13,135 nt of DNA from an uncultured Bacteroidales bacterium (GTDB lineage: Bacteria > Bacteroidota > Bacteroidia > Bacteroidales > P3). Location: NCBI GenBank assembly GCA_947176875.1, contig CAMWSI010000006.1, forward strand, positions 1-13,135. The letters are read 5' to 3'. Below are positions 1-13,040 of this stretch, piece by piece. The notes under the pieces were generated by a model. The model worked only from the letters and a program-made list of their open reading frames with translations. It did no database searches and was not told the origin of the DNA. Made by a program: the position numbers and the translations under genes. Position 1 is the first letter of the stretch. Each line of letters opens with the position of its first letter.

Positions 1-1
1 G

Positions 2-1156
2 AAGGAGATTAAAGAAATCCAGAAGAACAGTTTACGGGAACGAGCCGAGGATATCGAGAAGCAGATCGACGAGCAGTACGAGGACGACCTGAAGCGCTAC
101 CAGTCCAACGAGCGGAAGAAGACGGAGATCACGATCGAGCAGCTGCAGGCGCAGAAAGCCGCTAAGGAGAGAGAGGGATTGGACACCTACGACGAGGATG
201 CCCAGCTGCTCGAATCGCGCCGGCGTCTCAACCAAATGGACTTGGATAGCCAGCTGCTGGCCGCCGGGGAAAATGCAAAAGCGATCTATGAGGCCAAGAA
301 GCGCTACATCGACGAGGAGCGGAAGCTCGCCGCCGGGAACCTCGACCGGCAGGCCGAGCTCAACGCCGAATCCCTCAAGAACGAGCAGGAGTACACGCAG
401 TCGCGCATCGAGGCCGTGGAGCAGTGGGCGAATGCCGCGATGAATGCCATGTCGAGCGTCAACGACCTCTTCGCCGCGCTCGACGAGCAACGCCTGCAGG
501 AGGTGCAGGAGAAGTACGACCGGGAATCGGAGATGCTGCAGGATCAGCTCGACAAGGGGCTTATCTCACAGGAGGTGTACGAGAAGAAGCAGAAAGCGCT
601 GGATCAAGACCTCGAAAAGGAGCAAAAGAAAATCGCTCAGGAGCAGGCCAAGCGTGAAAAAGCGATGGCGATCTTCCAAGTCATCGTCGACACGTCGCTG
701 GGCATCATGAAAGCGTTGGCCACGATGCCACCTCCTGTAAGCTACGCAATGGCGGCCGTAACCGGTGCGCTGGGTGCCGTACAGCTCGCTACAGTCATCG
801 CGCAGCCGCTACCCAAAGCAGCCCGTGGCCGTAAAATCAAGGGCAAGTCGCACGCGCAGGGCGGGGAGCTCGTCGTGGCCGAGGACGGGGAGATCATTAT
901 GAACAAACGCTCCGTGTCGATGTTCGAGCCGCTGCTCTCAGAGATCAGCGTCGCCGGGGGTGGCGTTCCGTTCTCCAGCCATATACCGGACGGCGGCTAC
1001 ACGGCCCGGTGGGTGCAGTCGAACAGCACGGACGTCGAAGACCTACGCGATGCTATGAGCGATGCGGTCAAGGATCTGAAGATCTATACGGCCATTACCG
1101 ACATCCGTCGCGAGGACGGGCGATATACCACTGTCGAAACGCGGGGCTCGTTCTGA
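2..1156 (+). CDS. Phage tail tape-measure-like protein, C-terminal part (5' end outside window)
   Basis: The reading frame is open to the window edge, so this is the last 384 residues of a larger protein; the TTG at 179 is only an internal codon. The first ~220 residues are highly charged and rich in Glu, Lys, Gln and Arg, consistent with long coiled coils. A hydrophobic Ala/Val/Pro segment follows (MPPPVSYAMAAVTGALGAV), then a basic linker (KAARGRKIKGKSHAQGG) and a conserved-looking module ending GEIIMNKRSVSMFEPLL. In Bacteroidetes phages, tape-measure proteins commonly end in this order: coiled coil, hydrophobic patch, Gly/His linker, then an 'E-x-I-x-N-K/R-R-S' module. The expected role is to set tail length and act in DNA ejection. 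A terminator follows directly, so the gene closes its own transcription unit. A different coiled-coil tail or virion protein cannot be excluded. Confidence 0.75.
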   Translation, partial: KEIKEIQKNSLRERAEDIEKQIDEQYEDDLKRYQSNERKKTEITIEQLQAQKAAKEREGLDTYDEDAQLLESRRRLNQMDLDSQLLAAGENAKAIYEAKKRYIDEERKLAAGNLDRQAELNAESLKNEQEYTQSRIEAVEQWANAAMNAMSSVNDLFAALDEQRLQEVQEKYDRESEMLQDQLDKGLISQEVYEKKQKALDQDLEKEQKKIAQEQAKREKAMAIFQVIVDTSLGIMKALATMPPPVSYAMAAVTGALGAVQLATVIAQPLPKAARGRKIKGKSHAQGGELVVAEDGEIIMNKRSVSMFEPLLSEISVAGGGVPFSSHIPDGGYTARWVQSNSTDVEDLRDAMSDAVKDLKIYTAITDIRREDGRYTTVETRGSF

Positions 1157-1176
1157 CGACTGCCGGTTTTTGAGCG

Positions 1177-1205
1177 AAAAAGAGGGGTTTTTACCCCTCT
1201 TTTTT
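1177..1205 (+). terminator. Intrinsic terminator after the tape-measure-like gene
   Basis: An AGAGGGG / CCCCTCT stem, extended by A/T pairs, has a 6-nt loop and runs into six or more T residues. It lies 20 bp after the stop codon at 1156 and separates the tail gene from the next operon. Confidence 0.85.
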
Positions 1206-1212
1206 CATATCT

Positions 1213-1251
1213 GTTGCCAGTTGTTTTCAAATTGGTTGTCAGTTGTTTTCA
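1213..1251 (+). repeat. Two 17-bp direct repeats upstream of the late-operon promoter
   Basis: GTTGCCAGTTGTTTTCA at 1213-1229 recurs as GTTGTCAGTTGTTTTCA at 1235-1251. There is one mismatch and the period is 22 bp, about two helical turns. The second copy ends four bases before the probable -33 element. The layout fits paired binding sites for an activator or repressor acting on the promoter at 1256-1286; the regulator is not identified. Confidence 0.6.
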
Positions 1252-1255
1252 TCTA

Positions 1256-1286
1256 TTGCCGAGCAAGTTCGGGGCGTCTACTTTTG
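1256..1286 (+). promoter_or_regulatory. Bacteroidetes-type promoter of the structural operon
   Basis: TTG at 1256-1258 and TACTTTTG at 1279-1286 are separated by 20 nt. This matches the -33 TTG and -7 TAnnTTTG consensus known for Bacteroidetes primary sigma factors. Transcription would begin near 1292-1294, giving a leader of only about 15 nt before the ATG at 1308. The -7 element lies inside an 11-bp inverted repeat. Confidence 0.6.
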
Positions 1287-1307
1287 GGGAAAGTAGACGC
1301 TTTTTTT
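1274..1307 (+). terminator. Perfect inverted repeat plus T-tract abutting a start codon
   Basis: GCGTCTACTTT (1274-1284) and AAAGTAGACGC (1290-1300) form a perfect 11-bp stem with a 5-nt loop, followed by seven T residues. By form this is a canonical intrinsic terminator for any transcript coming from upstream. It also contains the -7 box of the predicted promoter, and its T-tract touches the ATG at 1308. A transcript starting near 1293 would carry only the 3' arm and escape the hairpin. It may therefore insulate the operon from read-through, act as an operator, or do both. Confidence 0.7.
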
Positions 1308-2423
1308 ATGATCGAAATCGAACTGCGTGGCGATATAGCCACTCCCGAAGAGGGGGCGAGGCTCCGGATGATGGGCTTTGAAGATACCATTTGTTCGGCT
1401 GAAAGCATCCGCAACGCCCTCGAATCCGCGCCCGATGATCCGGATGTGCGGATCAACATCAATTCCTGCGGCGGCATGACCAGCGAGGGGCTGGCCATCT
1501 ACGACATTCTGCGCACTTCCGGCAAGAACATCCACACCAATATCATCGGTAAGTGCCATTCGATGGCCGTGTGCATCCTGCTCGCGGCGCCTTCGGAGAA
1601 CCGTACAGCGAACCCCAACGCACGGGCCTTGATCCACAAGGTGCACGCTCCGGGCTACGGTGAGATGTCGGCCGAAGAGGCAATGGCCTTAGCAAAGTAC
1701 ATCGCGATGGAGGAGGATGCGATCCTCGACATCTACGAGGAGCGGACGGGCCAGCCGCGCGACGTCATTGAAGAGCTGATGGACGCCGAGGAGATGCAGG
1801 ACGCCGACGCCCTGCTCAAATACGGATTCATTTCACGAATCAACAATTATAACACCAACAAATTTAAACAAATGGCAAACAAAAACAGCAATTCGTCTCG
1901 CTGGGCAAAGTTCCTGGCGAACGCGCGCAACTCGCTGGGCATCGAGCCCCGCAACTACGACTACACCGACGGGGACGGCAAGGTCGTCTTCTCCACCGAC
2001 GGGGATGACGACGAAGTCCTCAAGGTCGGCACGGTCGTGCGCTTGGCCGACGGCAACACGTCGGGCACCTTCGTGCTGGGCGACGGCCGCCGCGTGAAGA
2101 TCGAGGACAACGAGGTTGTCGAGATCGAGGAGGCCCGATCCGAGGATGCGGCCCGCATCGCCGAGCTGGAAAACCTCGTGCAGGAGGGCATGGCCGTGGC
2201 TGAGGAGCTGACCAACCGAAACAGCTACCTCGAAGCGGAGAACCGCCGCCTTTCGGCCGAGAACGGATCCCTGCGTAACCAAGTGCAGAGTACGGGCCAG
2301 CCGCGCGGTCGGCTCTCGAACCCCGGCGTCCGCAACGGCGGCGCCCTCTCCATCGAGGAGCTCAAAGCCCGCGCCCGGGAGGGTCGTCAGGCGTTCAACA
2401 CGAAGTCGAACTCCAAAAACTAA
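1308..2423 (+). CDS. ClpP-like prohead protease fused to a scaffold-like domain
   Basis: A 371-aa protein whose first ~185 residues match ClpP-family phage prohead proteases. It has an NSCGG oxyanion-type loop near residues 52-56 (NSPGG is usual), the nucleophile motif HSMA with Ser85, and His110 in ALIHKV. The 25-residue spacing from Ser to His equals that of ClpP. The third acidic residue would be D159 or E161. Residues ~190-371 are acidic then coiled-coil (roughly 275-326, leucine/glutamate heptads) with a basic, Asn-rich end, as in scaffolding domains that the protease removes during capsid maturation. The start at 1308 is chosen because earlier in-frame codons lie in the terminator and promoter region. 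The gene ends 5 bp before the capsid gene. The function of the C-terminal half is inferred from layout, not from homology. Confidence 0.8.
   Translation: MIEIELRGDIATPEEGARLRMMGFEDTICSAESIRNALESAPDDPDVRININSCGGMTSEGLAIYDILRTSGKNIHTNIIGKCHSMAVCILLAAPSENRTANPNARALIHKVHAPGYGEMSAEEAMALAKYIAMEEDAILDIYEERTGQPRDVIEELMDAEEMQDADALLKYGFISRINNYNTNKFKQMANKNSNSSRWAKFLANARNSLGIEPRNYDYTDGDGKVVFSTDGDDDEVLKVGTVVRLADGNTSGTFVLGDGRRVKIEDNEVVEIEEARSEDAARIAELENLVQEGMAVAEELTNRNSYLEAENRRLSAENGSLRNQVQSTGQPRGRLSNPGVRNGGALSIEELKARAREGRQAFNTKSNSKN
1872..2423 (+). CDS. Possible nested in-frame scaffold gene (internal start at Met189)
   Basis: The ATG at 1872 is in frame with the protease gene and would give a 183-aa protein made of just the acidic and coiled-coil scaffold half. 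About 30 nt before it are strikingly AT-rich (AACACCAACAAATTTAAACA) in a GC-rich gene, and look like the A-rich leaders that serve as initiation regions in Bacteroidetes. Lambda offers the precedent: Nu3 scaffold is translated from an internal start in the protease gene C. The position at the domain junction supports the idea, but an AT-rich linker between fused domains would look the same. Confidence 0.4.
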   Translation: MANKNSNSSRWAKFLANARNSLGIEPRNYDYTDGDGKVVFSTDGDDDEVLKVGTVVRLADGNTSGTFVLGDGRRVKIEDNEVVEIEEARSEDAARIAELENLVQEGMAVAEELTNRNSYLEAENRRLSAENGSLRNQVQSTGQPRGRLSNPGVRNGGALSIEELKARAREGRQAFNTKSNSKN

Positions 2424-2428
2424 CGAAG

Positions 2429-3490
2429 ATGCCCGGATTACTCAACATGAGCAACTTCACCTTCTGCGGTGAAGTCATCCGCGCCGTCAACGAGCTGCTC
2501 TTCGACGAAACGATCCGCAGCCCGCAGCTCGACGCGATCCACCAAATTTGGACTGGCGCCGTTACTGACAAGGAGGTCGGTTTCATCGGCAAGGGCGGCA
2601 TCATCGGCGTGCCGGAAACGGGGTGCGATCCCAAGCCGCAGCCGTGGGACATCACGACCCGCGCGGTCAAGTGGTCTCCCAAGATGTGGGAGTTCCTGAT
2701 CGCCTCGTGCTGGAAAGACCTCGAAAACACGGCCGCCGTCTATTCTCTGAAGACGGGAAAGGACATTCCCGACTTCACGGACACGGACTACATGGCGATC
2801 GTCGTCGAAGTCCTCAGCGGCTCGCTGCTCGACATGATGTGGCGCTGGATATGGTTCGCCGATACGGAGGCCAAGAACGTCGCCGATTCGGGTCTGATCA
2901 CCGACGGCCTCAACCTCGATCACTTCACGCTGATCGACGGTCTGTGGAAACAGGTGTACAGCCAGATCGGGGGCACCGGTGCTGCTCAGCACACGGCGAC
3001 CATCACCGAGAACGCCGCAACGACCTACGCCACGCAGGCTCTCGACCCGGACAACGTGATCGGCTACCTGCAGCGTGTGGTCATGGGCGCGCCCCTCGTG
3101 CTGCGCCGTCAGGCAGACAAGGAGCTGCTGGTTACGCAATCGGTGTACGACGCCTATCAGATGGCCCTCGAAGGTAAGGGTTCGACGGTGCTCTACAACA
3201 ATCTCGTGAACGGACAGTCGCAACTGATGTACAACGGCATTCCGCTGCATCCGCTGCCCGTGTGGGACGAGATGATCGCCGAATACGAGAACACGGGAAC
3301 GAAGCTCCACGACCCGCATCGTATCCTCTTCACCACGAAGAGTACGTTGGCCGTCGGCGTCGATTCCGAAAATTCGTATTCCGACTTCAAAGTCTGGTAC
3401 AACGAGGACGAGCGCAAGGTTAAGATGCAGGGCTTCGGCCGCGTCGACGCCAAGCTGGCGAATCCGGCCATGTTCTCGGTCGGTCTGTAA
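2429..3490 (+). CDS. Major capsid protein (putative)
   Basis: A 353-aa protein directly downstream of the protease-scaffold gene, where the capsid gene normally sits. It is rich in aromatic residues and has a DPHRILFTTKSTLAVGVD segment followed by a short basic strand (DERKVKMQGFGRVDAKLANP) near the end. This is typical of HK97-type major capsid proteins, which often end in a beta-rich region describing the shell subunit. It starts at 2429 (MPGLLNMSNF); the ATG at 2447 (MSNF) is a credible alternative, as it is preceded by an A-rich stretch. There is no signal peptide or membrane segment. The call rests on position, size and overall character; no diagnostic catalytic motif exists for this family. 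A GC-rich antisense open frame over this gene is ignored. Confidence 0.7.
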   Translation: MPGLLNMSNFTFCGEVIRAVNELLFDETIRSPQLDAIHQIWTGAVTDKEVGFIGKGGIIGVPETGCDPKPQPWDITTRAVKWSPKMWEFLIASCWKDLENTAAVYSLKTGKDIPDFTDTDYMAIVVEVLSGSLLDMMWRWIWFADTEAKNVADSGLITDGLNLDHFTLIDGLWKQVYSQIGGTGAAQHTATITENAATTYATQALDPDNVIGYLQRVVMGAPLVLRRQADKELLVTQSVYDAYQMALEGKGSTVLYNNLVNGQSQLMYNGIPLHPLPVWDEMIAEYENTGTKLHDPHRILFTTKSTLAVGVDSENSYSDFKVWYNEDERKVKMQGFGRVDAKLANPAMFSVGL

Positions 3491-3508
3491 CCCAAAAACG
3501 CAAGAATC

Positions 3509-4093
3509 ATGGATTGCAGCAAGATTACCACGGGGTTCATCGTCGCAGATTGCGACGGCCCCGCTTTGGCCGGCACGACGGGCCGCATCATCCTCGTCAG
3601 CTTCACGGACATCGACCGCGCGAAATCGAAGGACGCCGCGAACGTCATTTCGGCCATCGTCCTCAAGGAGGGGGCGAAAGGTTACGAGGTCGATTCTCTG
3701 CCCAACGCTGTCGTGGGTGAGGCCCCTATTACTGCCGGTACCTACGTTACGACCTTCCAGCACAACCTGACCGTGCGTATCTTCAAGAAGAGCGAGGCGG
3801 CCAAGAAGTTCGTGAACCAGCTTTCGACGGCCCGTGTCGTCGCTATCGTCGAGAACAACGAACGCGGTGCGAACGGGGAGGTCAAGTACGAGGTCTACGG
3901 CTGGAACAGCGGTCTGTCGCTTACCGACCTGACCGATTCCACCGAGATGACCGACGGCGTGGCTTACCAGATCGGGCTGGGTAGCTCCAGCACCGCTCAG
4001 GAAAAGAGCCTCCCGCTGAGCTTCTTCAACACCGACGAGGCGACCACGGACGAAGCCGTGAACGCCCTGCTCGGTACAGCACCCGCGGCCTGA
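3509..4093 (+). CDS. Tail-tube / major-tail-like structural protein (putative)
   Basis: A 194-aa protein that starts with MDCSKITTGF and contains mostly short beta-prone stretches, a KYEVYGWNSGLSLTDLTD segment, and a Ser/Thr-rich C-terminus. The motif 'YEVYG-x-x-x-GL' in a ~190-aa acidic beta protein resembles major tail (tube) proteins of Bacteroidetes phages. Its place right after the capsid gene also fits a decoration or head-completion protein. It is separated from the capsid gene by 18 bp and overlaps the next start by one base (TGATG at 4091-4095), suggesting translational coupling. Virion role fairly likely, exact role uncertain. Confidence 0.5.
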   Translation: MDCSKITTGFIVADCDGPALAGTTGRIILVSFTDIDRAKSKDAANVISAIVLKEGAKGYEVDSLPNAVVGEAPITAGTYVTTFQHNLTVRIFKKSEAAKKFVNQLSTARVVAIVENNERGANGEVKYEVYGWNSGLSLTDLTDSTEMTDGVAYQIGLGSSSTAQEKSLPLSFFNTDEATTDEAVNALLGTAPAA

Positions 4094-4884
4094 TGGAAGC
4101 GAGGCTGAAACGCTTCCAAGCTGAACATCGAGGGCTGGCCAATAACCGGCCGGCCTTCGATGCGAAGCGGGCCTCCGATCCGGCTTTCGCGGCAGAGATC
4201 GAAGCCCTGTATAAGTACTTCGTGGGCACGTTTCGCCGCTACTGCGGCAACTGCTGGCACGACGCTTTTATCCAACTTTTAACAATCAAGAAAATGAACA
4301 GTAAATCGCATTTCCGGGTGCTTGCAGGCACCCTCCTGCACGATCCGGTGAACCGGGACGTGAAGTATATGCTCACCCCGCAGCGGCTCGCTGACATGGG
4401 CGACGACCTCGCCCTGCGTCATCTGGCGAACAACCCGAAAGCCGTCGAGTATTTCGAGAAACCGCTTCCCGAGAACCTCGACGAGCTGATCGCGGACTAT
4501 CGGAAACGGCATGCGGAACCTACTGCAGCTGAAGCGCCCGCCGCAACGGCGTCCGATCCCGAACAGGAGGCCCCGAAAGAGGCGTCGGAAGACGCCAAGG
4601 CGGCCAAGCCCGGCCGCGGCGGACGTCGCAACGCCGCAGCGGTGGAGAAAGCGGAGGAATCCGCGGCGCCCGCTGCCGCTGAAGCGCCCGCTCAGGCGTC
4701 GGACGACGCCGAAAAGGCAGCCGCAACAGCCGCAACGGCGTCCGATTCCGAGCAGGCGGCAGGCGAAAAAGCCGACGATCCGGCCGCTGCCCCGGCTTCG
4801 GAGGAGGAGGCCCCGAAAGAGGCGTCGGAAGACGCCAAGAAGAACGCCGAGGAGTACGAAGAAGTTCCCTCGGGCGCTCGGTAG
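4093..4884 (+). CDS. Structural-operon protein with Cys motif and Ala/Glu-rich repetitive tail
   Basis: A 263-aa protein in three parts. Residues 1-67 hold a basic helical region with FRRYCGNCWHDAF, a CxxC-x-H cluster near residues 49-52 that might bind metal. Residues 68-140 begin MNSKSHFRVLAGTLLHDP and look like a small globular domain. From ~140 to the end it is low complexity, rich in Ala, Glu, Lys and Pro, with repeated APKEASEDAK units. I do not recognise a family. Position between tail-like and portal genes suggests an assembly factor, connector or minor virion protein. The stop codon at 4882-4884 falls inside the 5' arm of the tRNA-like element that follows. The ATG overlaps the previous stop by one base. 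Confidence 0.65.
   Translation: MEARLKRFQAEHRGLANNRPAFDAKRASDPAFAAEIEALYKYFVGTFRRYCGNCWHDAFIQLLTIKKMNSKSHFRVLAGTLLHDPVNRDVKYMLTPQRLADMGDDLALRHLANNPKAVEYFEKPLPENLDELIADYRKRHAEPTAAEAPAATASDPEQEAPKEASEDAKAAKPGRGGRRNAAAVEKAEESAAPAAAEAPAQASDDAEKAAATAATASDSEQAAGEKADDPAAAPASEEEAPKEASEDAKKNAEEYEEVPSGAR
4294..4884 (+). CDS. Possible nested in-frame start giving the C-terminal two domains
   Basis: The ATG at 4294 (Met68) is in frame and is preceded by an AT-rich run (TTTTAACAATCAAGAAA) in an otherwise GC-rich gene, again like a local ribosome-entry leader. It would make a 196-aa protein starting MNSKSHFRV. The preceding 67 residues could then be a separate small Cys-motif gene that has lost its stop codon and fused in frame with its neighbour. 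Both readings are inference. Confidence 0.3.
   Translation: MNSKSHFRVLAGTLLHDPVNRDVKYMLTPQRLADMGDDLALRHLANNPKAVEYFEKPLPENLDELIADYRKRHAEPTAAEAPAATASDPEQEAPKEASEDAKAAKPGRGGRRNAAAVEKAEESAAPAAAEAPAQASDDAEKAAATAATASDSEQAAGEKADDPAAAPASEEEAPKEASEDAKKNAEEYEEVPSGAR
4565..4839 (+). repeat. 35-bp direct repeat within the Ala-rich coding tail
   Basis: An identical 35-bp stretch occurs at 4565-4599 and 4805-4839, encoding most of the unit EAPKEASEDAK. Shorter repeats overlap it: GCTGAAGCGCCCG at 4528 and 4678, and CCGCAACGGCGTCCGAT at 4541 and 4730. The pattern indicates internal duplication of a low-complexity segment, so its length is expected to vary between related phages. Confidence 0.85.
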
Positions 4885-4940
4885 GTTAGGAGTAGGTCAG
4901 GCGGCCTCGGCCGCTGGGGGTTCGAATCCCCCTCTACCAC
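4880..4940 (+). other. tRNA-like element or tRNA relic before the portal gene
   Basis: The 3' half is a textbook tRNA end: a T-stem of GGGGG (4916-4920) and CCCCC (4928-4932) around the loop TTCGAAT, then TCTACC and A at 4939. The 5' arm GGTAGG (4880-4885) pairs with TCTACC over six positions (one G-T). In between are only about 30 nt, with a hairpin GCGGC-CTCG-GCCGC (4901-4914) where the anticodon arm should be. Its loop is four nt, so no anticodon can be read, and a proper D-arm is missing. It is therefore not a normal tRNA gene. It overlaps the stop codon of the upstream gene and ends 17 bp before the portal start. Confidence 0.55.
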
Positions 4941-4957
4941 AAAAAAAGCAGGAAATC

Positions 4958-6223
4958 ATGAAAGCGATAGACATCAAAGCGGCCCGGCCGTTTCAGACGC
5001 GCAACGACAAGTCCCTCGGCATACAGACCTACGGCGAGGGCAACAACTTTCCGCAGCAGGTCGCCAAGATCGTGGGTGCGAGCTGCACGGGCAAGAGCTG
5101 TCTGAACATCTTCGCGCAGTTCGTGTACGGCGACGGCTTCAACGACCACGGTCTCCAAGACCTCGTCGTCAACCGACGCCGGCAGAAGCTGGGTGCGGTG
5201 CTGAAAGCGGTTGCCGGCGACTTCACGAAGTTCAACGGCTTCGCGTTGCATGTCAACTACAACGCGAACTATCAGATCGTCGAGATTCAGCATGTCCCTT
5301 TCGAACATTGTCGCTTTGAGAAGGTCGATTCGGAGACGGGCGAGTTTCACAAAATCGCAGAGCACGACGACTGGGGCCGCGACTTCGAGGGGATCAAGCG
5401 CTTCCGCAAGCAGGACATCACTTTCTACGACATGTTCGACCCGCGCCCCGAAGTCATTCAGGCGCAGGTCGACGCCGCCGGCGGCTGGGACAAATATCGT
5501 GGCCAAATCCTCTACTATTCGGGAGACGGTGAGCGCACCTATCCGACGCCGATCTACGAGCCCGAACTTACCGACATGCGCATCGAGGAGGCTATCTCTA
5601 ACGTGCTGGGCCGAAATGCAGCCAACAACTTCTTCCCGGCCGGCGCGCTGGTCGACATCCACAACGGCGATCAGAGCGAAGCCGAAGCGAAGAATACGAT
5701 CGACATGATTCACAAGTATCAGGGTGCGGAGAATGCGGGGACGATGATGTACATGCAGGTCGGCAGTAAGGACGAAGTACCCATCTTCATCCCGTTCACG
5801 GGCGAGAACTACGACAAGCACTTCACGCAGACGCAGGCCACGATCCCCGACAACATCGGTCGGATGTTCAACCAGCCGCCGATCTTGCGAGCAAAGGACG
5901 TCGGGGCGAACTTCGGCGCCGACCTGATGATCAACGCCTACACGTACTACAACACGAAGACCTCGGGCGATCGTCAGACCCTCTCGGAGACGTTCAGGAT
6001 GCTATTCGAGCGGTGGCCGCAGCACGTGGCGGACGACTTCGCGATCCGTCCCCTTTCCTACATCGCCGGAAACTCGCTACTCGCACGCCTCGGACAAACG
6101 GCCGTCGACAAGATCATGGAGATCGTGAAGGACACGACCATCGCGGACGATCAGAAGCGAAGCATGCTTCGCTTCGGCTACGACTTGCCCGATGATGACA
6201 TCGACAAATTATTGAGCAAATGA
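4958..6223 (+). CDS. Phage portal protein
   Basis: A 421-aa protein starting MKAIDIKAARPFQTRNDKS. It has the features of portal proteins in Bacteroidetes phages: an N-terminal region with GNNFPQQVAKIVGAS, a central alternating beta/alpha region (FNGFALHVNYN, QHVPFEHCRFEKVD, YYSGDGERTYPTPIYEP), and a helical C-terminal half with NVLGRNAANNFFPAG and the 'Q-x-TIPDNIGRMFNQPPIL' type segment before the last helices. The portal is the dodecameric ring at one capsid vertex through which DNA is packaged and the tail attached. The frame is open upstream to 4511, but that part is a shadow of the Ala-rich gene; the ATG at 4958 is chosen because it follows the tRNA-like element and an A-rich leader. Its stop overlaps the next start by four bases (ATGA). 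Confidence 0.8.
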   Translation: MKAIDIKAARPFQTRNDKSLGIQTYGEGNNFPQQVAKIVGASCTGKSCLNIFAQFVYGDGFNDHGLQDLVVNRRRQKLGAVLKAVAGDFTKFNGFALHVNYNANYQIVEIQHVPFEHCRFEKVDSETGEFHKIAEHDDWGRDFEGIKRFRKQDITFYDMFDPRPEVIQAQVDAAGGWDKYRGQILYYSGDGERTYPTPIYEPELTDMRIEEAISNVLGRNAANNFFPAGALVDIHNGDQSEAEAKNTIDMIHKYQGAENAGTMMYMQVGSKDEVPIFIPFTGENYDKHFTQTQATIPDNIGRMFNQPPILRAKDVGANFGADLMINAYTYYNTKTSGDRQTLSETFRMLFERWPQHVADDFAIRPLSYIAGNSLLARLGQTAVDKIMEIVKDTTIADDQKRSMLRFGYDLPDDDIDKLLSK

Positions 6224-6780
6224 TAACGACGGTCGAATACATGCGGCTTGTGCGGCCTATCGCTCAGAACATCGACGGCCTTAACCGCATCGAGCCCTAC
6301 ATCAAAGAAGCGGAATCCCTCAACATCCTGCCGCAGATCGGCGCCGCCGTGTACCGGTGGCTGGACGAGACGGACTTCAACGGAGACGGGCCGTGGGTAT
6401 TCTCGGCGCCGGACGGCCGCGCCGTAACGATCACCAAAGAGCAGCACAACGCAATCCTGATGGGCGGCTACTACGATGGCCCTTGCCAGAGTGGCCATTC
6501 GATGGGCCTTGTCGCTGCCGCATCGTACTACGCCTATTCCCGCGCCGTGCTGGACAATCAGGTCAACGTTACCAGCTTCGGCGTGGTCAAGAAGCGGACG
6601 GAGTTCAGCGAGCCCGTGGATAGCAGCACGCTGGTGCAGGTTTCGCGTGAGGCCAAGAAGCTGGGCGACGAGGTAACGCGGGAGGTCATCGAGCACCTGC
6701 GTGCGCTCGGTATGATCGAATGCTGCCATAAGCCGCAGCGGGTTCCGCACTTCATGGCCGTGGCGCCCAAAAAGATGTAG
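6220..6780 (+). CDS. Head-tail connector / head-completion protein candidate
   Basis: A 186-aa soluble protein whose ATG overlaps the portal stop (ATGA, 6220-6223), so it is probably translationally coupled. It starts with a helical segment (VEYMRLVRPIAQNIDGLNRIEPYIKEAE), followed by an aromatic, Gly-rich middle (GGYYDGPCQSGHSMGLVAAASYYAYSR) and a helix-rich end. Proteins of this type, beginning 'T-x-EYLR...I...IEPYI-x-EAE', are found next to portal genes in Bacteroidetes phages and are thought to be head-completion or adaptor proteins. The neighbourhood supports this; the biochemical role is inferred. Confidence 0.55.
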   Translation: MITTVEYMRLVRPIAQNIDGLNRIEPYIKEAESLNILPQIGAAVYRWLDETDFNGDGPWVFSAPDGRAVTITKEQHNAILMGGYYDGPCQSGHSMGLVAAASYYAYSRAVLDNQVNVTSFGVVKKRTEFSEPVDSSTLVQVSREAKKLGDEVTREVIEHLRALGMIECCHKPQRVPHFMAVAPKKM

Positions 6781-6783
6781 ACC

Positions 6784-7269
6784 ATGAACCTCTTGACTGA
6801 GCAATCTCCCATGACGGAGACGGTCGTTCAGAACTCAGCGACCGCCATACTGACGTCGATCTTCTATCAGACGCTGTCCGATTCGATAATCTGGCTGGTC
6901 ATCGCCGCCGTGGCGATCGTCTGCGACCTCTTCTTCGGGTGCGAGGCGGCCCGGCGCCGCGGCGAGCGCGTCCGCTTCTCGCGGGCCGTCCGCCGGACGG
7001 GAAATAAGGTCTGCGAATACCTGTGCTGGGTGATGCTGGCAATCACCATATCGATAGGCTTCTCGGCCGACTGGCTCAAATACGCCATCTTCGCCGTCAT
7101 TTACGGCAATGAGCTCTCCTCGTGCCTCTCGAACTACTTCGAGGCCAAAGGCAAGCGGATTACGTTTAACGTCTTCTCAATGCTCGGCCGACGCTTCGGC
7201 ATTACAGAGCTCGAAGAATGCCATATCGAAGATGAGGATCGGACACCGAATAACCAAAATTTACAATAG
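6784..7269 (+). CDS. Phage holin family protein
   Basis: A 161-aa membrane protein with three hydrophobic segments: about residues 34-53 (SIIWLVIAAVAIVCDLFFGC), 76-95 and 97-115. A basic loop (ARRRGERVRFSRAVRRTG) lies between the first two, and the C-terminal tail is charged. This topology and the location immediately upstream of an endolysin gene (2 bp gap) match the Bacteroidetes phage holin family. It would form inner-membrane lesions that release the endolysin and time lysis. A second in-frame ATG at 6811 (MTETVVQ) could be the true start, or the two starts could give a dual-start holin/antiholin pair as in lambda S; the sequence does not decide. Confidence 0.75.
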   Translation: MNLLTEQSPMTETVVQNSATAILTSIFYQTLSDSIIWLVIAAVAIVCDLFFGCEAARRRGERVRFSRAVRRTGNKVCEYLCWVMLAITISIGFSADWLKYAIFAVIYGNELSSCLSNYFEAKGKRITFNVFSMLGRRFGITELEECHIEDEDRTPNNQNLQ

Positions 7270-7271
7270 AG

Positions 7272-7754
7272 ATGAAGCACTTTACAATGTTGGAATTTAC
7301 CAACTCCGCCACGGCCCGAAAACTGGGCCTCGACAACACCCCCTCGGCCGTGCATGCGGCCAACCTCGAAATGCTGGTCGCCCAGTTGCTCGATCCGCTG
7401 CGCGAAGCGTGGGCGGTCAAGTGTGCCCATGAGCAATGGGGTACCCCGGCGTTGACCGTTACGTCCGGGTACCGTGGCCCGGCACTCAATAAGGCCGTCG
7501 GCGGCGCTGCAACCTCGGCCCATTGCGTAGGCTATGCCGCCGACCTTGTACCGGCTAACGGACGGCTTGCGGAATTCAAGGCGTTCTGCCGCGACTGGCT
7601 CAAAGATAAGCCGTTCGACCAGATGATCTCGGAGGACGAGAATGCCGCGGGCGTACCCCGCTGGATCCATATCGGCTACAAGAATCAGCAGGGCGGCCAG
7701 CGGCGGCAGCTGCTCTCGATGATCGGGGGCAAGTACCAAACACTCACCGCTTAA
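7272..7754 (+). CDS. Endolysin, peptidase M15-type (D-Ala-D-Ala carboxypeptidase-like)
   Basis: A 160-aa protein with the M15 peptidase signature. SGYRGPALN at residues 65-73 precedes the zinc motif SAHCVGYAAD, with His84 and Asp91 as ligands, and WIHIG supplies the third ligand, His133. The order and spacing (SGYR, HxxGxAxD, WxH) are those of the M15_3/VanY-like family that cleaves peptide cross-links or stem peptides in peptidoglycan. The substrate is inferred from the family. There is no signal peptide, so it should depend on the holin just upstream for access to the cell wall. Confidence 0.85.
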   Translation: MKHFTMLEFTNSATARKLGLDNTPSAVHAANLEMLVAQLLDPLREAWAVKCAHEQWGTPALTVTSGYRGPALNKAVGGAATSAHCVGYAADLVPANGRLAEFKAFCRDWLKDKPFDQMISEDENAAGVPRWIHIGYKNQQGGQRRQLLSMIGGKYQTLTA

Positions 7755-7764
7755 CCAAAAAGCT

Positions 7765-8778
7765 ATGAACATCCAACTCTATAACGAAGACTGCATCGAG
7801 GGGCTGAAGCGCGTCCCCGACGGAAGTGTGGACGTCGTGCTGACCGATCCGCCGTACCTCTACCTGAAGAATCAGAAGCTCGAACGTCCATTCGATGAGC
7901 AAGCGTTCTTCGGGCACGTGAAGCGAATCCTGAAAAAGGACGGCTTCATCGTAATGTTCGGCCGCGGCACGTCGTTCTACCGCTGGAACACGATTCTCGA
8001 CGACATGGGTTTCCATTTCAAGGAGGAGATCATCTGGGACAAATCCTATTGCACAAGCCCGCTTATGGCGATTTCCCGCGTGCATGAAACGATCTCGATC
8101 CACACGAAAGGGAAAGGCATAATTAACCGCTGCAAGGTTCCCTACCTCGAAATGAAAGCCCACGATCCGCAATCGATCATGCAGGACATCAAACGCATGA
8201 GCGCTATTTTGCATAACCCGAAATCACTGAAAGCAGTAGAGGATTTTTTGAAAAACAATCTTCCTATTTATGATTTAAAACGTACAAAAAAGCATAATGT
8301 TTCAGCACAACCGGGATTCTCAAACGAAGATCGTTCAGCTGCCGTAATGCGAGCTTTGGTTGACGGATTCACCGAAAAATCTATCGTCCGAACCGATTTC
8401 GAGGGCAAGCGTAAGGGAGAAGGTATTGTAAGGAGGAATGCAGGATGGGGAGATCGTTCCTGCAACGTAATGCAGTCTATCGAATTTGGGCAAAATGAGA
8501 AAACGATCATCAGGCAGATTCGCGATCACTATGCAACGATTCATCCAACGCAGAAGCCCGTTCGACTGCTCGAACGCCTGCTGAACCTCGTTTCCAAGCC
8601 CGGCGCGGTTGTCGTCGACCCGTTCATGGGATCGGGATCAACGGCTATTGCCTGCCTCAACAGCGGCCGCCACTTCATGGGCTGGGAAATCGACAAGGAG
8701 TATTTCGAGGGTGCGGAACAGCACATCTCCGCCCACCAGCAGGAAATGGGCCTTTTCGCAAATACCGAAACGGCATGA
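7765..8778 (+). CDS. Beta-class DNA methyltransferase (orphan), probably N6-adenine
   Basis: A 337-aa site-specific methyltransferase. Motif IV is DPPY at residues 28-31 near the N-terminus, and motif I, VDPFMGSGST at residues 284-293, is near the C-terminus, preceded by HPTQKP (residue ~260). The order IV - target recognition - I is the beta class. DPPY favours N6-adenine methylation, though N4-cytosine cannot be ruled out. Between them, residues ~148-260 form the presumed target-recognition region, encoded by DNA of visibly lower GC than the flanks. No restriction endonuclease is next to it, so it is probably an orphan enzyme that masks phage DNA from host restriction. It ends inside the next start (ATGA at 8775-8778). 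Confidence 0.85.
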   Translation: MNIQLYNEDCIEGLKRVPDGSVDVVLTDPPYLYLKNQKLERPFDEQAFFGHVKRILKKDGFIVMFGRGTSFYRWNTILDDMGFHFKEEIIWDKSYCTSPLMAISRVHETISIHTKGKGIINRCKVPYLEMKAHDPQSIMQDIKRMSAILHNPKSLKAVEDFLKNNLPIYDLKRTKKHNVSAQPGFSNEDRSAAVMRALVDGFTEKSIVRTDFEGKRKGEGIVRRNAGWGDRSCNVMQSIEFGQNEKTIIRQIRDHYATIHPTQKPVRLLERLLNLVSKPGAVVVDPFMGSGSTAIACLNSGRHFMGWEIDKEYFEGAEQHISAHQQEMGLFANTETA

Positions 8779-9395
8779 AACGCTTCGCCTCGCTTCTGAT
8801 CTTCACGGCCGGCATGGCCGCGATCTTCCTCCTCGGCTGGTGGGCCCGCGGCGCCCAGCTCGACAACGCCGGGCAGGTGGTCGAAACTCGCATCGACACG
8901 GTCTACTACGAGCGGCCGCAACCGATCGCCACGACCAGCCGCCCGGTAACGGTCAATGTCCCGCGAATCCTCTTTGCCGGGGAATCCCGCAAATCCTGTG
9001 CGGGTGGTTCCGCAAATGTTCGGGAAACGGCGGAAGTCGTTGCATATTCTGCAACAACTCCTTACGGGGAGCAATGTGCAAATAATGCACAATGCCCCGG
9101 CAGTTGTCCAGAAATCCCGAACAACTCGGCCGATAGCGTGTCGCTGACGTTGGAGATCGAGACGTTCGTTTACGAAGATTCTCTTTACCGCGCCCAGGTC
9201 AGCGGCCCGGCCGTGGCGGGCTACCGCCCCTCGCTCGACTGGATCGAGACCTATAGCCGTACGCAGACGATCACCCGCACGGAGACGCGGCGGAATCGCT
9301 TCGCCGTAACGGCGGGCGTCGGTGCCGCCTATACCCCGCGGGGCTTTCAGCCGACCGTCGGCGTGCAGGTCGGCGTCGTGCTGTGGGGCTTTTGA
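8775..9395 (+). CDS. Membrane-anchored late protein of unknown function (spanin-like position)
   Basis: A 206-aa protein overlapping the methyltransferase stop by four bases. Residues ~6-23 (SLLIFTAGMAAIFLLGWW) form one hydrophobic segment after MKRF, giving a signal anchor with most of the protein outside the inner membrane. The C-terminal ~90 residues alternate beta-type strands and end in GVQVGVVLWGF, like an outer-membrane or beta-barrel-type terminal strand. Residues ~70-118 are Cys-, Asn- and Ala-rich and coincide with a run of perfect DNA hairpins, so this part looks inserted. Position after holin and endolysin, with a single anchor, is compatible with a disruption protein for the outer envelope, but no coiled-coil or lipobox supports a canonical spanin. 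I do not recognise the family with confidence. Confidence 0.6.
   Translation: MKRFASLLIFTAGMAAIFLLGWWARGAQLDNAGQVVETRIDTVYYERPQPIATTSRPVTVNVPRILFAGESRKSCAGGSANVRETAEVVAYSATTPYGEQCANNAQCPGSCPEIPNNSADSVSLTLEIETFVYEDSLYRAQVSGPAVAGYRPSLDWIETYSRTQTITRTETRRNRFAVTAGVGAAYTPRGFQPTVGVQVGVVLWGF
8986..9126. repeat. Cluster of perfect short hairpins inside a coding region
   Basis: Four stem-loops lie within 141 bp: CCCGCA/TGCGGG (8986-9004, 7-nt loop), GTTGCA/TGCAAC (9039-9055, 5-nt loop), TGTGCA/TGCACA (9075-9091, 5-nt loop, extended by GCA/TGC across an A-A mismatch to 9071-9095) and AGTTGT/ACAACT (9102-9126, 13-nt loop). The first three share a core of TGCA or GCA with an AT-rich loop. The reading frame remains open throughout. 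Confidence 0.65.
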
Positions 9396-9427
9396 TAAAG
9401 TTTGTCAATTCTTCGAAAACTAACAAG

Positions 9428-9910
9428 ATGAAAACCTACCTCCACGCCTTTTTGCAGTTCTTCGTGTGGCTGTGGCAGCTGCCGCAGGTCATCGCCGGCT
9501 GCGTGTGGTGCATCTTCACACGGCCGCGCTACCTCTACACCCATCACCACGTCCATCTGTTCACGTGCCGCTTCGGCGGCGGCGTGTCGTTCGGCCCGAT
9601 GGCGTTCTACGACGAGCGACACCGTGCGGGCCTGCTGTCGCGCGATCCCCGCGTCATGCCCTACATCACCCATGAATACGGCCACTCGATGGATAGCCGG
9701 CTGTGGGGGCCGCTCTACCTCTTTGTAATCGGCATCCCGTCCGGCGTGCACCTATGGGTGCGCGAGTGGTTCAAGGATCGGTGGCCGCGGCTGGAAAACT
9801 ACTACGACTTCTACACCGAGCGCCGGGCGAACAGGAAGGCCGGCATCGAGGTCGTGAAGACCCCGGCCGGCCAGTATGCGCTGCGCATGAAGCGCCCGTC
9901 GAAGCTATAA
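9428..9910 (+). CDS. Small membrane-associated HExxH zinc-metallopeptidase-like protein
   Basis: A 160-aa protein. The N-terminus (FLQFFVWLWQLPQVIAGCVW) is hydrophobic and could insert in the membrane. HEYGH at residues 82-86 is a full HExxH zinc motif, followed by a hydrophobic stretch (LYLFVIGIPS) and YDFYTERRANRKAG, where Glu131 may be the third zinc ligand. Small bacterial proteins with 'HEYGH-x-x-x-S...GPLYL-x-VIG-x-PS...TERxAN' form a recognised but uncharacterised group; recall of this group is from memory. The ATG at 9428 is chosen because it follows an A-rich leader (GAAAACTAACAAG). The ATG at 9383 overlaps the previous gene. It is the last gene before the terminator at 9934. Its role in the phage cycle is unknown; envelope modification or lysis is possible. 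Confidence 0.6.
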   Translation: MKTYLHAFLQFFVWLWQLPQVIAGCVWCIFTRPRYLYTHHHVHLFTCRFGGGVSFGPMAFYDERHRAGLLSRDPRVMPYITHEYGHSMDSRLWGPLYLFVIGIPSGVHLWVREWFKDRWPRLENYYDFYTERRANRKAGIEVVKTPAGQYALRMKRPSKL

Positions 9911-9933
9911 CTACGGCATGCCCCTGTTGCCAT

Positions 9934-9963
9934 GCAGTCGATCGGAAGATTGACTGCTTTTTT
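9934..9963 (+). terminator. Intrinsic terminator at the end of the late operon
   Basis: GCAGTCGATC (9934-9943) pairs with GATTGACTGC (9948-9957) through ten positions, including one G-T, with a GGAA tetraloop and six T residues. It lies 24 bp after the stop of the HExxH gene. Confidence 0.85.
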
Positions 9964-9994
9964 GTGCCTTTTTTGAAAAAAAGTGTCTGAAAAT

Positions 9995-10025: not shown

Positions 10026-10045
10026 TAATACCAAAATAAAGATAT

Positions 10046-10177: not shown

Positions 10178-10180
10178 CCC

Positions 10181-10212
10181 AATGCCCCTCCCAGAGAGGG
10201 AGGGGCATTTTA
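10181..10212 (+). terminator. Intrinsic terminator/attenuator between the two small genes
   Basis: AATGCCCCTCCC (10181-10192) and GGGAGGGGCATT (10198-10209) form a perfect 12-bp stem with a 5-nt loop, followed by TTTT overlapping the stem end. It is three bases after the stop at 10177 and 12 bases before the next ATG at 10224. It would stop most transcription and limit expression of the next gene. Confidence 0.8.
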
Positions 10213-10223
10213 ACAAAACGCTT

Positions 10224-10457
10224 ATGAAATCGAACTCGCTTTTTAAACAAAAATTAGACGATATATTGGTGGAGGTGTCCTGGGGGCATTTGTCGATGCG
10301 GTATTTTGGGAAATCTCCATCGTGGCTTTACAACAAGCTGCGCGGAATCGACGGAAACGGGAAGCCGGTATCGCTGACCGACGAAGAACTGGAGCGGTTC
10401 AAGGGCGCACTATGCGACCTTGCAGACAGAATTAGACGGGTAGCGGATTCGCTATAA
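10224..10457 (+). CDS. DUF5053-like small protein, probably DNA-binding
   Basis: A 77-aa protein starting MKSNSLFKQKLDDILVEVSW. The segment SMRYFGKSPSWLYNKLRGIDGNGKPVSLTDEELERFKGAL has the form of a helix-turn-helix ('YFG-x-S-x-SWLY-x-KL-x-G' then 'L-T-x-E-E'), as in the DUF5053 proteins of Bacteroidales phages; the family name is from memory. The start at 10224 is preferred over 10143 because the longer frame would run through the upstream gene and the terminator stem. It is followed by a strong terminator. A repressor or regulator of the adjacent promoter is plausible but not shown. Confidence 0.65.
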   Translation: MKSNSLFKQKLDDILVEVSWGHLSMRYFGKSPSWLYNKLRGIDGNGKPVSLTDEELERFKGALCDLADRIRRVADSL

Positions 10458-10508
10458 GGCTCAAGTTTCATATCATTTTGGTAGCCTCGTTCGAGCCTTG
10501 CGGGGCGG

Positions 10509-10539: not shown

Positions 10540-11733
10540 TCAAGGCCTCGGAGAGTAGACGTAGTCGATGACTTGCCGATTCGCCCGGTCGACCTTTGTC
10601 CAGTCATAGGATATGTAGTACTTGCCGGCCACCGAGGTGTCGACGTGCCCGAGGGCTTTGCCGATCTCTTTCTCCGATATTCCGATCTTGTCGGCCAGCG
10701 TCGCCCACGTGTAGCGGGCCCAGTAGTACGTCAGGCCCTCGATGCCGAGCTCTACGGCGATCGCACGCAGGGCTTTCTGTATGCGATTCTTGAAATTCTC
10801 GTAGGCGGCCATCTCCTCGGCAAAGCGCAGGACGTGATCGCGGCCGGCATAGCGGGCGATGATTTCCGCCGCTTCCGGCTGTACGAGCAGCGACACGGGG
10901 TTCGGGTTTTTGCCCGCCGTCTTCGTCCGAACGAAGTGCGCCCGGCCGTCGCGCAGCCGGTCGAGGTGGAAGAGGTCGACGAGGTTCATGCCGCAGAGGT
11001 AGAACGAGAGCAGGAACAGATCGCGAGCGATGCGGCGGATCTGGTGGGGGCTGTCGTAGGCTATGATACGCCGCAGCTGCTCCTCCGTCAGCGTCTCTTT
11101 CTCCTTGCGGGCGCTGGCGATCTTGAACTTCCTGAAAGGGTAGGCGTCGAGCCTAACGACGTCTTCGTCGATCGCGCTGTTGAACACCGCCCGTATATTG
11201 CGGAAGTGTATTGCCCGCGTGTTGACACTGAGGCCCTGCTCCGTGAGGTGTGCCTCCAGTGCGCGCAGCCATATGACCGTGATTTCCTCGAACGTCAGAT
11301 CATGGCCCCCGAACGCACGGACGGCCTTCAGCGTGTACAGGTAGGCCTCGCGGCTGTTCTCCGTGCGGCGGCTGTCGGCGTAGCGCTGGAGGCAGTCGGT
11401 GAACAACTCGGGCCGCTGCTCCGAGCGCGTTGCCGTTAGCAGGCGTTTGATCTCGACGACGCCTTTCCCGGCGAGGCGCCCGTCGGCCTCCAATCCTCGC
11501 AGGGCGTTGGACAACCGGAAATAGGCCTCCTCTAAATCGGCATTGATCGCGCGGGCATTCGGACACTTCGGAACGACCGCCTTGTTGATCTCGCCGTTCC
11601 AGTGTTCGGGCCGAATCGAAATACCGGTGCCGATCGTCGTAGTGGCCCCTTTGTGTGAGAGGAGGAACTGAACCGGGTAGAGCCCGCGGGCGTTCGCCCG
11701 GCGTCGGTCTAACTTCAGGGTAATAGTAGCCAT
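10540..11733 (-). CDS. int: Tyrosine recombinase / phage integrase
   Basis: A 397-aa integrase. The N-terminal ~100 residues (ATITLKLDRRRANARG, then GTGISIRPEHWNG) match the arm-binding domain of Bacteroidetes integrases; a SAM-like core-binding domain follows, then the catalytic domain. Visible catalytic residues are Lys271 (VRTKT), Arg340 (YWARYTWAT), His363 (LGH) and Tyr372 (GKYYISY), nine residues after His363 as in XerD. Two usual residues differ: the first Arg is Cys247 (FYLCGMN), and the His of HxxR is Tyr337. Loss of the first Arg is known in IntDOT, where it is Ser. Met at 11733 is chosen since the upstream extension to 11895 runs through repeats and looks non-coding. The att region lies directly upstream of the start. 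Confidence 0.9.
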   Translation of the reverse strand: MATITLKLDRRRANARGLYPVQFLLSHKGATTTIGTGISIRPEHWNGEINKAVVPKCPNARAINADLEEAYFRLSNALRGLEADGRLAGKGVVEIKRLLTATRSEQRPELFTDCLQRYADSRRTENSREAYLYTLKAVRAFGGHDLTFEEITVIWLRALEAHLTEQGLSVNTRAIHFRNIRAVFNSAIDEDVVRLDAYPFRKFKIASARKEKETLTEEQLRRIIAYDSPHQIRRIARDLFLLSFYLCGMNLVDLFHLDRLRDGRAHFVRTKTAGKNPNPVSLLVQPEAAEIIARYAGRDHVLRFAEEMAAYENFKNRIQKALRAIAVELGIEGLTYYWARYTWATLADKIGISEKEIGKALGHVDTSVAGKYYISYDWTKVDRANRQVIDYVYSPRP

Positions 11734-11737
11734 TTTT

Positions 11738-11757
11738 TTTGCAAGTTTTTTGCAAGT
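11738..11757 (+). repeat. Pair of TTTGCAAGT repeats, one attachment-site arm
   Basis: TTTGCAAGT occurs at 11738-11746 and 11749-11757, in the same orientation with an 11-bp period. They lie immediately before the integrase start codon. With matching copies beyond the tRNA fragment they are the best candidates for arm-type integrase binding sites, and integrase bound here could also repress its own gene. Confidence 0.7.
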
Positions 11758-11772
11758 GGCGGGGGAATACGA

Positions 11773-11801
11773 ATGCCACCAGATGCCACCAGATGCCACA
11801 C
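11773..11801 (+). repeat. Three tandem copies of a 10-bp repeat upstream of int
   Basis: ATGCCACCAG occurs at 11773-11782 and 11783-11792, and a third partial copy ATGCCACAC at 11793-11801. A 10-bp period puts each copy on the same face of the helix, as expected for cooperative binding of a small protein such as an excisionase, or an int regulator. Confidence 0.65.
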
Positions 11802-11886
11802 AAAGGTGGTCTATTTTCCCGGATTGGGCAAGATTTTGCAATAAAAAAAGCACCTGCAATTTTGCAAGTACTTGATTTTCAGTTTG

Positions 11887-11928
11887 TGGGAACATGCGGA
11901 TTTGAACCGCAGACCTCCTGCTTGTCGA
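11887..11928 (-). other. 3' half of a tRNA, probable attachment core
   Basis: Read on the reverse strand: an anticodon-stem strand GCAGG (11917-11921), variable AGGTC, T-stem TGCGG and CCGCA around the loop TTCAAAT (11900-11906), acceptor strand TGTTCCC (11888-11894) and discriminator A (11887). No CCA is encoded. No matching 5' acceptor (GGGAACA type) or D-arm occurs upstream on that strand, so the tRNA is incomplete. A partial tRNA pointing at an integrase gene is the usual form of a phage attachment core. The tRNA identity cannot be read because the anticodon loop is at or beyond the edge of the fragment. Confidence 0.75.
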
Positions 11929-11940
11929 ATAAGTGTATTG

Positions 11941-11957
11941 TTGTTGAGGATCAACAA
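11941..11957. repeat. Inverted repeat flanking the attachment core
   Basis: TTGTTGA (11941-11947) and TCAACAA (11951-11957) form a perfect 7-bp inverted repeat with a 3-nt spacer, just beyond the 5' limit of the tRNA fragment. It may be a core-type site for integrase or a site for an accessory protein. Confidence 0.5.
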
Positions 11958-11979
11958 TTTAACGCATGATATTTTACCT

Positions 11980-11999
11980 TTTGCAAGTTATTTGCAAGC
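11980..11999 (+). repeat. Second pair of TTTGCAAGT-type repeats, other attachment arm
   Basis: TTTGCAAGT at 11980-11988 and TTTGCAAGC at 11991-11999 have the same 11-bp period and orientation as the pair at 11738-11757, but lie on the opposite side of the tRNA fragment. Confidence 0.7.
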
Positions 12000-12001
12000 G
12001 C

Positions 12002-12032
12002 AAAACCATTCCGAGGGCAACCTCGAAATGGT
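12002..12032 (-). terminator. Intrinsic terminator of the reverse-strand lipoprotein operon
   Basis: On the reverse strand ACCATTTCGAGG pairs with CCTCGGAATGGT (12 positions, one G-T) around the loop TTGC, followed by TTTT. It lies 12 bp after the lipoprotein stop and keeps that operon from reading into the attachment region. Confidence 0.75.
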
Positions 12033-12044
12033 CGCATACGACGG

Positions 12045-12530
12045 TTATTCGGGCAGGAGATCATCCGGAAGTCCGACGTCCGACCACTGCGAGACGCGGG
12101 TGAACGGATATTGATAATCCCCGTTGAATTGGAGCGTGGTTTCGTCAACCGTGAACCCCGTAAACCTCAACGGCATATTAGAATCGCAGATCGTGCCCGG
12201 CGTCATGGGGTGGTCATGGTTCCAGTAGTCATAGCAGAATGTGATTTCCGCGTTGAAGATGGCGTAACGGAACGTATCGAATCCAAGTTCTGGATTCGGT
12301 GTTATAAGTGGATCATCGTAATGTCCGTGAATGCCTGTCCCTTCTTCTCGAAATACATATAGATCGTAGCCTGAATATACAGCCGGTCGTCGACAAGCCC
12401 ATTTGCCGACGATCAACTCCCGCTTCTGCTGATTCTCTTCCTCTTGCTCGTTGTAGGTTGAGGTAGAGCAGGAAGACAGCAAAGCCGCCCCCACAAATAT
12501 TGATGCGATGATTCGATAAAACGATTTCAT
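12045..12530 (-). CDS. Small lipoprotein (lipocalin-like beta character), possible phage cargo
   Basis: A 161-aa protein with a clear lipoprotein signal: MKSFYRIIASIFVGAALLSSC, lipobox LSSC, lipidated Cys21. An acidic Glu/Gln-rich linker (NEQEEENQQKRE) follows, which could favour surface export in Bacteroidetes. The mature part is beta-rich (GKWACRRP, YDLYVFREEGTG, EITFCYDYW, TLQFNGDYQYPFTR) and ends DDLLPE; small lipoproteins with 'GKW' near the start are often lipocalin-like, but the match is loose. It begins 3 bp after the stop of the upstream gene, so the two are co-transcribed. If the att region is attP, this is a phage gene beside att, and phage lipoproteins in such places often cause superinfection exclusion; that function is only a hypothesis here. 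Confidence 0.7.
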   Translation of the reverse strand: MKSFYRIIASIFVGAALLSSCSTSTYNEQEEENQQKRELIVGKWACRRPAVYSGYDLYVFREEGTGIHGHYDDPLITPNPELGFDTFRYAIFNAEITFCYDYWNHDHPMTPGTICDSNMPLRFTGFTVDETTLQFNGDYQYPFTRVSQWSDVGLPDDLLPE

Positions 12531-12533
12531 ATG

Positions 12534-13028
12534 CTATTCTTTTATAAAGTCCGGAATAACAGCACCTTCTGAATTTGGCACACCGAGCAATGTTAATTCA
12601 AACGTATTGTTATAGTTGTCTATGCTAATATCTGACCACATTCTGGAGAATGTGATACCATTCATTATAGCGGAAAGGTCTTGTTTTGTAACTTTTCCGG
12701 AGCAACCTGAATTTAGAACATCCGGCCCATATTTTTCGGCGCAAAAATTTATAAAGTCAATAGCTTCATTAGAGAGTTTATTGTATTTTCCTGAAAAAAC
12801 GAGCGTCTTTGATCCGGTTTCGTGATAAATTATTTCAAGGCGGTCGAACATAGATAATTCTATGTCTTTAAGTTGCATGCAGTATTTATTTATAAATTGC
12901 CCTAATTTATTTTGTTCAACCTTGATGAAATGAATATCGGGGTATTGAAAGATATTCCCTACGTCGATTTTGAAAAAGTCGTACTCGCTGTTTATTTTTC
13001 GCGCTTTCTTAAAATTAAAAAGTCCCAT
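12534..13028 (-). CDS. AT-rich hypothetical protein of 164 aa, accessory gene
   Basis: A soluble mixed alpha/beta protein starting MGLFNFKKARKINSEYDFF; a TTG six bases upstream is a possible alternative start. It has no signal peptide or membrane segment. The gene is much more AT-rich than the phage structural genes, suggesting recent acquisition. I do not recognise a domain. Size, acidic to neutral composition and place between a truncated upstream gene and a small lipoprotein would fit an immunity or cargo protein, but nothing in the sequence proves it. It ends 3 bp before the lipoprotein start and begins 12 bp after the nearest stop of the gene upstream. Confidence 0.65.
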   Translation of the reverse strand: MGLFNFKKARKINSEYDFFKIDVGNIFQYPDIHFIKVEQNKLGQFINKYCMQLKDIELSMFDRLEIIYHETGSKTLVFSGKYNKLSNEAIDFINFCAEKYGPDVLNSGCSGKVTKQDLSAIMNGITFSRMWSDISIDNYNNTFELTLLGVPNSEGAVIPDFIKE

Positions 13029-13040
13029 ATCCAATAGATT

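Follow-up and report, generated by a model that had tools for sequence, protein, structure and literature searches.

A very probable intact attP of a temperate Bacteroidota phage, with paired repeats on both sides of a tRNA half, in a contig of a bacterial draft genome

Lambda-type integrases contact arm sites with their N-terminal domain and core sites with the remainder of the protein, and it is by analogy with these enzymes that we read the integrase described here. Phage attachment sites (attP) with the 3' half of a tRNA as the core and with arm repeats on both sides have been described, in the portions of the sources consulted, for mycobacteriophages and for Oenococcus prophages (PMC10865867, PMC8074189), and the corresponding table for Oenococcus oeni has entries such as 2/2, 2/3 and 2/4, which we take to be the repeats per arm (PMC8074189). 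The CTnDOT integrase, according to the consulted part of another source, lacks the first catalytic arginine (PMC8138268). Judging by its sequence and by that of related loci, the region 11738-11999 analysed here is very probably an intact, unsplit attP belonging to a temperate tailed phage that infects Bacteroidota.

The window, that is, the whole stretch of DNA that was analysed, is an entire contig of 13,135 bases from a draft genome (bin) that comprises 279 contigs and is 61% complete, and its source appears to be a member of the Bacteroidota based on the related loci. Its features are the following:

2..9910, plus strand: phage genes, with the order of seven conserved in G048 and G227
within 2..9910, plus strand: tape measure gene (C-terminal part)
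within 2..9910, plus strand: ClpP-type head protease (head maturation protease)
within 2..9910, plus strand: likely capsid protein, by position
within 2..9910, plus strand: portal
7765-8778, plus strand: N6/N4-type DNA methyltransferase (PF01555), located after the structural genes and before the integrase
10540..11733, minus strand: tyrosine integrase, 397 aa, ATG at 11733 (PF17293, PF13102 and, below its curated cut-off, PF00589)
11738..11757, plus strand: integrase-side arm pair (P arm), two copies of TTTGCAAGT spaced by 11 bp, lying 4 nt upstream of the start codon of the integrase
11773..11799, plus strand: three copies of ATGCCAC spaced by 10 bp, lying between P pair and hairpin
11843..11873, minus strand: terminator-like hairpin, 11 pairs and a T run, behind the tRNA 3' end
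11887..11926, minus strand: putative attP core, the 3' half of a tRNA-Val(GAC) from anticodon to discriminator base, by its match to G003
11980..11999, plus strand: far-side arm pair (P' arm), 53 nt away from the core, with TTTGCAAGT and TTTGCAAGC spaced by 11 bp
12045..12530, minus strand: small lipoprotein-like gene (signal sequence by our reading), presumed phage cargo, adjoining the P' arm
12534..13034, minus strand: gene of unknown function, presumed to be phage cargo

The seven phage genes are collinear with their counterparts in G048 and G227 at 31-45% identity. The genes in 2-6780 run in the order tape measure, head protease, likely capsid and portal, which differs from the usual phage order of head before tail. 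A high-similarity search of the entire window against 50,697 phage records gave no match, and the portal protein found no relatives in IMG/VR at the sensitivity of the search used. The G+C content of the window (57%) agrees with the mean over 22 loci of the bin (55%), so composition gives no sign of misbinning.

The integrase carries the arm-binding, core-binding and catalytic domains of IntCTnDOT-type recombinases: the arm-binding PF17293 and the SAM-like PF13102 scored over their cut-offs, and the catalytic PF00589 below its curated one. This domain search used a longer frame that reaches 11895 and thus begins within the attachment site; we take the ATG at 11733 as the probable start, in line with the start codons of the relatives. 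R274, K276, R345 and Y378 (numbering of the aligned segment), presumably the catalytic residues, are conserved in 53 of 54 related integrases, and the residues CGMN stand where the first catalytic arginine would be expected, which we take to resemble its absence from CTnDOT. No solved structure was matched by the integrase sequence, and the nearest integrases found in the family are those of G028 and G221 (33-36% identity).

Exact copies of TTTGCAAGT start at 11738, 11749, 11861 and 11980, and the copy at 11991 reads TTTGCAAGC, with one mismatch; these are the five positions that an earlier, sequence-only reading of this DNA had listed, and no further copy with at most one mismatch was found on either strand of the whole window. 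Five copies are not striking by number alone, given that shuffled versions of the whole window held 2.25 copies of this type on average and at least five in 15 of 200 cases. The arrangement is a different matter: in 0 of 2000 dinucleotide shuffles of 11650-12150 did a 7-mer form two pairs with 11-bp spacing that were separated by more than 100 bp, and in 12 of 2000 a 9-mer occurred four times. A chance origin is thus rejected on arrangement, though not on copy number. The two arm pairs are 20-nt units that are 95% identical to each other, and the pattern TTTGCA-N5-TTTGCA is confined to the G028 and G221 junctions within the 246 kb of DNA taken from relatives (14 loci, some of them overlapping). 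The ATGCCAC triple might be a site for an excisionase, a bending protein or another accessory factor, which is conjecture on our part; G028 and G221 have one ATGCCAC each between arm cluster and terminator, and their two sequences are nearly alike there.

Between the arm pairs, 11886-11926 (minus strand) matches the tRNA-Val(gac) of the same-genus genome G003 at 37 of 41 positions, starting at the anticodon; the core comprises 40 nt read leftwards from 11926, from the GAC anticodon to the discriminator base. ARAGORN found no tRNA in the window, the 5' half being missing. The earlier description of a tRNA 3' half without its 5' half therefore stands, with its end moved from 11928 to 11926, where the identity stops. 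The adjoining hairpin folds at -14.5 kcal/mol (z -3.7; equal folding in 1 of 200 shuffles), and the TTTGCAAGT copy at 11861 forms most of one of its sides. Hairpins at the corresponding place in G028 and G221 have a different sequence without TTTGCA, which disfavours the 11861 copy as an arm site; it is probably a part of the terminator instead, although its position had been listed correctly. The phage thus seems to supply both the tRNA end and the terminator. In an Arcticibacter element (L157), the 85-nt stretch common to both junctions includes a terminator-like hairpin, meaning that element and host had an identical one.

A complete tRNA sharing this half, which the sequence-only reading had suggested seeking in related hosts, did not turn up: a search of 190 genomes in the family and 393 in the order (overlapping sets) that allowed up to 3 mismatches across the 40 nt gave only the window itself, and no exact 30-nt match was present in IMG/VR. 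The bin yielded 22 tRNA matches, 21 of them typed, none as Val, and one untyped; since the bin is only 61% complete, the absence of an integrated copy from it means little. When the 5' half of the G003 tRNA is joined to the phage 3' half, a U-U mismatch results in the acceptor stem (by our pairing).

The organization of integrated relatives is what gives the arrangement its meaning. At the integrase end of the G028 element, three TTTGCA at 11-bp spacing are followed by a hairpin and then by a complete tRNA-Arg, and at its far end, about 54 kb off and located within its own sequence, an identical 51 nt of tRNA-Arg are followed, 56 nt on, by two TTTGCA, again at 11-bp spacing; the genes on the opposite side of this displaced half are, by our reading, host genes for ribosomal proteins and EF-Ts. 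G221 has an integrase junction with a complete tRNA-Val(tac), on a contig that stops 9 kb past the integrase. Displaced halves were also sought, separately from G028, in three further genomes (L030, L077 and L068), using the tRNA 3' sequence alone and not the arm motif, and were found in two of them, 27 kb away in L030 and 72 kb away in L077; this search by the 3' half found neither a displaced half nor a second junction in L068. Behind these displaced halves, the motif pair of the integrase side recurs with 11-bp spacing, at 89 nt in L030 and 58 nt in L077. The tRNA beside the integrase is complete in G028, G221, L030 and L077.

Both ends could be located for three elements, inserted in tRNA-Arg (G028), tRNA-Lys (Arcticibacter pallidicorallinus) and tRNA-His (Mucilaginibacter galii). 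They resemble the window in having a related integrase (27-36% identity), a tRNA 3' half as the core, and 11-bp-spaced repeats next to the start of the integrase as well as behind the far core; they differ from it in using other tRNAs and other motifs (TTTGCAWAATA, TTGTGACG and TTGTAAAAC) and in being integrated, with the arms divided between two junctions. In all three, one arm cluster lies at each junction, the integrase side has the complete tRNA, and the stretch common to both junctions measures 45, 51 or 85 nt. This is how the sequence-only reading had pictured the integrated form, with one arm per junction and the tRNA restored at one of them.

Because both arm clusters surround a single tRNA half in the window and are split in all three of these integrated relatives, we read the window site as an attP, and because an unsplit attP has phage DNA on either side, the contig is probably phage DNA outside the chromosome, derived from an unintegrated (or tandem) copy. 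The earlier reading had suggested a free, circular or circularly permuted phage genome; its intact attP is supported, and a free circle, a tandem and permuted DNA are alike compatible with a 13-kb contig. Indeed, the same attP could lie in a tandem (double) prophage or in packaged head-to-tail DNA rather than in a free circle, since the site between two joined phage copies is likewise unsplit and a contig of 13 kb whose ends do not overlap is what such DNA could also give. We regard this as unlikely, though by no means negligible; for a tandem, neither a junction nor a second copy of 11700-12100 was found in the (incomplete, 61%) bin. It is considerably less probable that the site is an assembly chimera, in which the two junctions of an integrated prophage were falsely joined through the repeated tRNA core: the 45, 51 or 85 nt shared by the junctions of integrated copies would be a likely place for such a join, but common reads are longer than a core of about 40 nt, and the bin, incomplete as it is, holds no matching host junction contig.

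The genes right of 12045 had been assigned to the phage in the sequence-only reading, and this assignment gains from their position, although neither protein has relatives in the phage collections searched. The lipoprotein-like protein has no match in the phage records, and both right-hand proteins lack relatives in IMG/VR at the sensitivity of the search used. The former has 13 homologues besides itself, one of them named as Alistipes, and its C-terminus WSDVGLPDDLLPE is invariant in 13 aligned members; of 190 family genomes, 1 has its gene, namely its own, and 3 of 392 other genomes of the order gave weak matches (E about 3e-5 to 1e-4). For the gene at 12534-13034, a search of about 5.8 billion proteins gave a single homologue other than itself; its G+C content is 34%, within a right-hand part of 34-50% as opposed to 58% in 1-10500. 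The right-hand genes are most likely phage genes, mainly because they lie beyond the P' arm, and their accessory distribution fits cargo. That the site is instead one junction of an integrated prophage, with host chromosome right of 11928 and a coincidental right-hand pair, is very hard to sustain, since the lack of phage relatives and the deviating G+C content of the right-hand genes, which would suit it, are set against its prediction of a complete tRNA beside the integrase, as at the G028, G221, L030 and L077 junctions, against a right-hand pair that matches the far-side arms of the three elements in motif, spacing and distance, and against a lipoprotein gene confined to its own genome in the family.

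Under the attP reading, the N-terminal arm domain of the integrase would contact the TTTGCAA pairs, spaced by 11 bp, that flank the core, and strand exchange would take place in the tRNA core, with a presumed crossover point near the anticodon. The insertion target would be a host tRNA-Val(GAC) gene, for which base pairing predicts GGGAACA as the 5' acceptor strand and CCTGC in the anticodon stem. After insertion, the integrase side should carry a tRNA made of the host 5' half and the phage 3' half, followed by the phage-borne terminator, and the far side the displaced host 3' half. With the P pair only 4 nt upstream of the start codon, integrase binding could also repress the integrase gene itself.

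To assess how widely this spacing occurs, we surveyed 102 integrase loci, of which 48 could be tested (2 gave no hit, 46 had no match that extended to the N-terminus, and 6 had less than 150 nt upstream), counting repeats that were 7 nt or longer, were spaced by exactly 11 bp and lay no more than 120 bp from the start of the integrase. Such a pair was present at 27 of the 48 loci including the window (26 of the 47 others, with different motifs) compared to 7 of 666 background pieces, while other spacings from 8 to 17 were found at only 0-4 of the 48 loci; 11 bp corresponds to one helical turn. An exact 7-nt pair is absent from the remaining 21 loci. These figures supersede those of an earlier survey that allowed spacings of 10-12 and included some duplicate loci (34/50 vs. 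a background of 54/744). At 14 of the 48 loci, a complete tRNA whose 3' end faces the integrase lies within at most 900 nt, and a second pair of the same motif upstream was found only in the window among the 27 loci with a pair, 6 of which had less than 900 nt upstream, with L004 and L006 (<260 nt) too short to judge.

The motifs vary by integrase (e.g., TTTATGAC, TCCGACAAC, TTTGTGCCC and TTGTAAAAC). Across 22 of the 27 loci, after dropping integrases more than 90% alike, motif similarity correlated with that of the N-terminal part of the integrase (Spearman 0.50, with 0 of 2000 permutations as high) and with that of the C-terminal part (0.55). The partial correlation for the N-terminal part is only 0.08, a value reached by 268 of 2000 permutations, and given this and the result for the C-terminal part we do not attribute the motif to the arm domain alone. 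We consider it somewhat probable that this family of Bacteroidota integrases shares an att grammar, consisting of integrase-specific sites exactly 11 bp apart at the start codon, a tRNA half with a terminator behind it, and, at a further 53-89 nt, a second pair.

The attP marks this contig, although binned with a bacterial draft genome, as phage DNA of an unsplit copy, and places the genes to its right in the phage. The 11-bp pair rule (27 of 48 loci; far junction in 3 of 3 elements), of which we found no description for Bacteroidota in the consulted portions of the open-licence literature (including PMC10865867, PMC6764341, PMC8138268 and PMC8074189), would allow prophage ends and attP sites in this phylum to be recognized by a simple sequence test. 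If the proposed grammar is true, sequence alone would suffice to locate the attP and the two ends of a prophage, with the motif changing along with the integrase, and unsplit phages could be told apart from prophages in metagenome contigs.

Sites of this kind are already described in mycobacteriophages and Oenococcus, so the window represents a further example that would work in a well-known way; the likenesses and differences that follow are drawn from the parts of the sources consulted. The attP of Oenococcus oeni prophages likewise has a tRNA-overlapping core and direct repeats on its arms, although the phylum and the integrases are different and spacing lies outside the comparison (PMC8074189). 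In the mycobacteriophages Boilgate and Fionnbharth, pairs of putative arm-type sites flank the core as they do here, but these phages have other hosts, and in Fionnbharth only 10 bp are shared and the tRNA is not rebuilt (PMC10865867). The IntCTnDOT subgroup (including CTnDOT and NBU1) shares with the window its occurrence in Bacteroidota and the arm-binding domain, the difference being that CTnDOT and NBU1 are conjugative or mobilizable elements (PMC8138268). Finally, the NBU1 core lies at the 3' end of the tRNA (PMC10865867), whereas that of the window lies at the anticodon loop.
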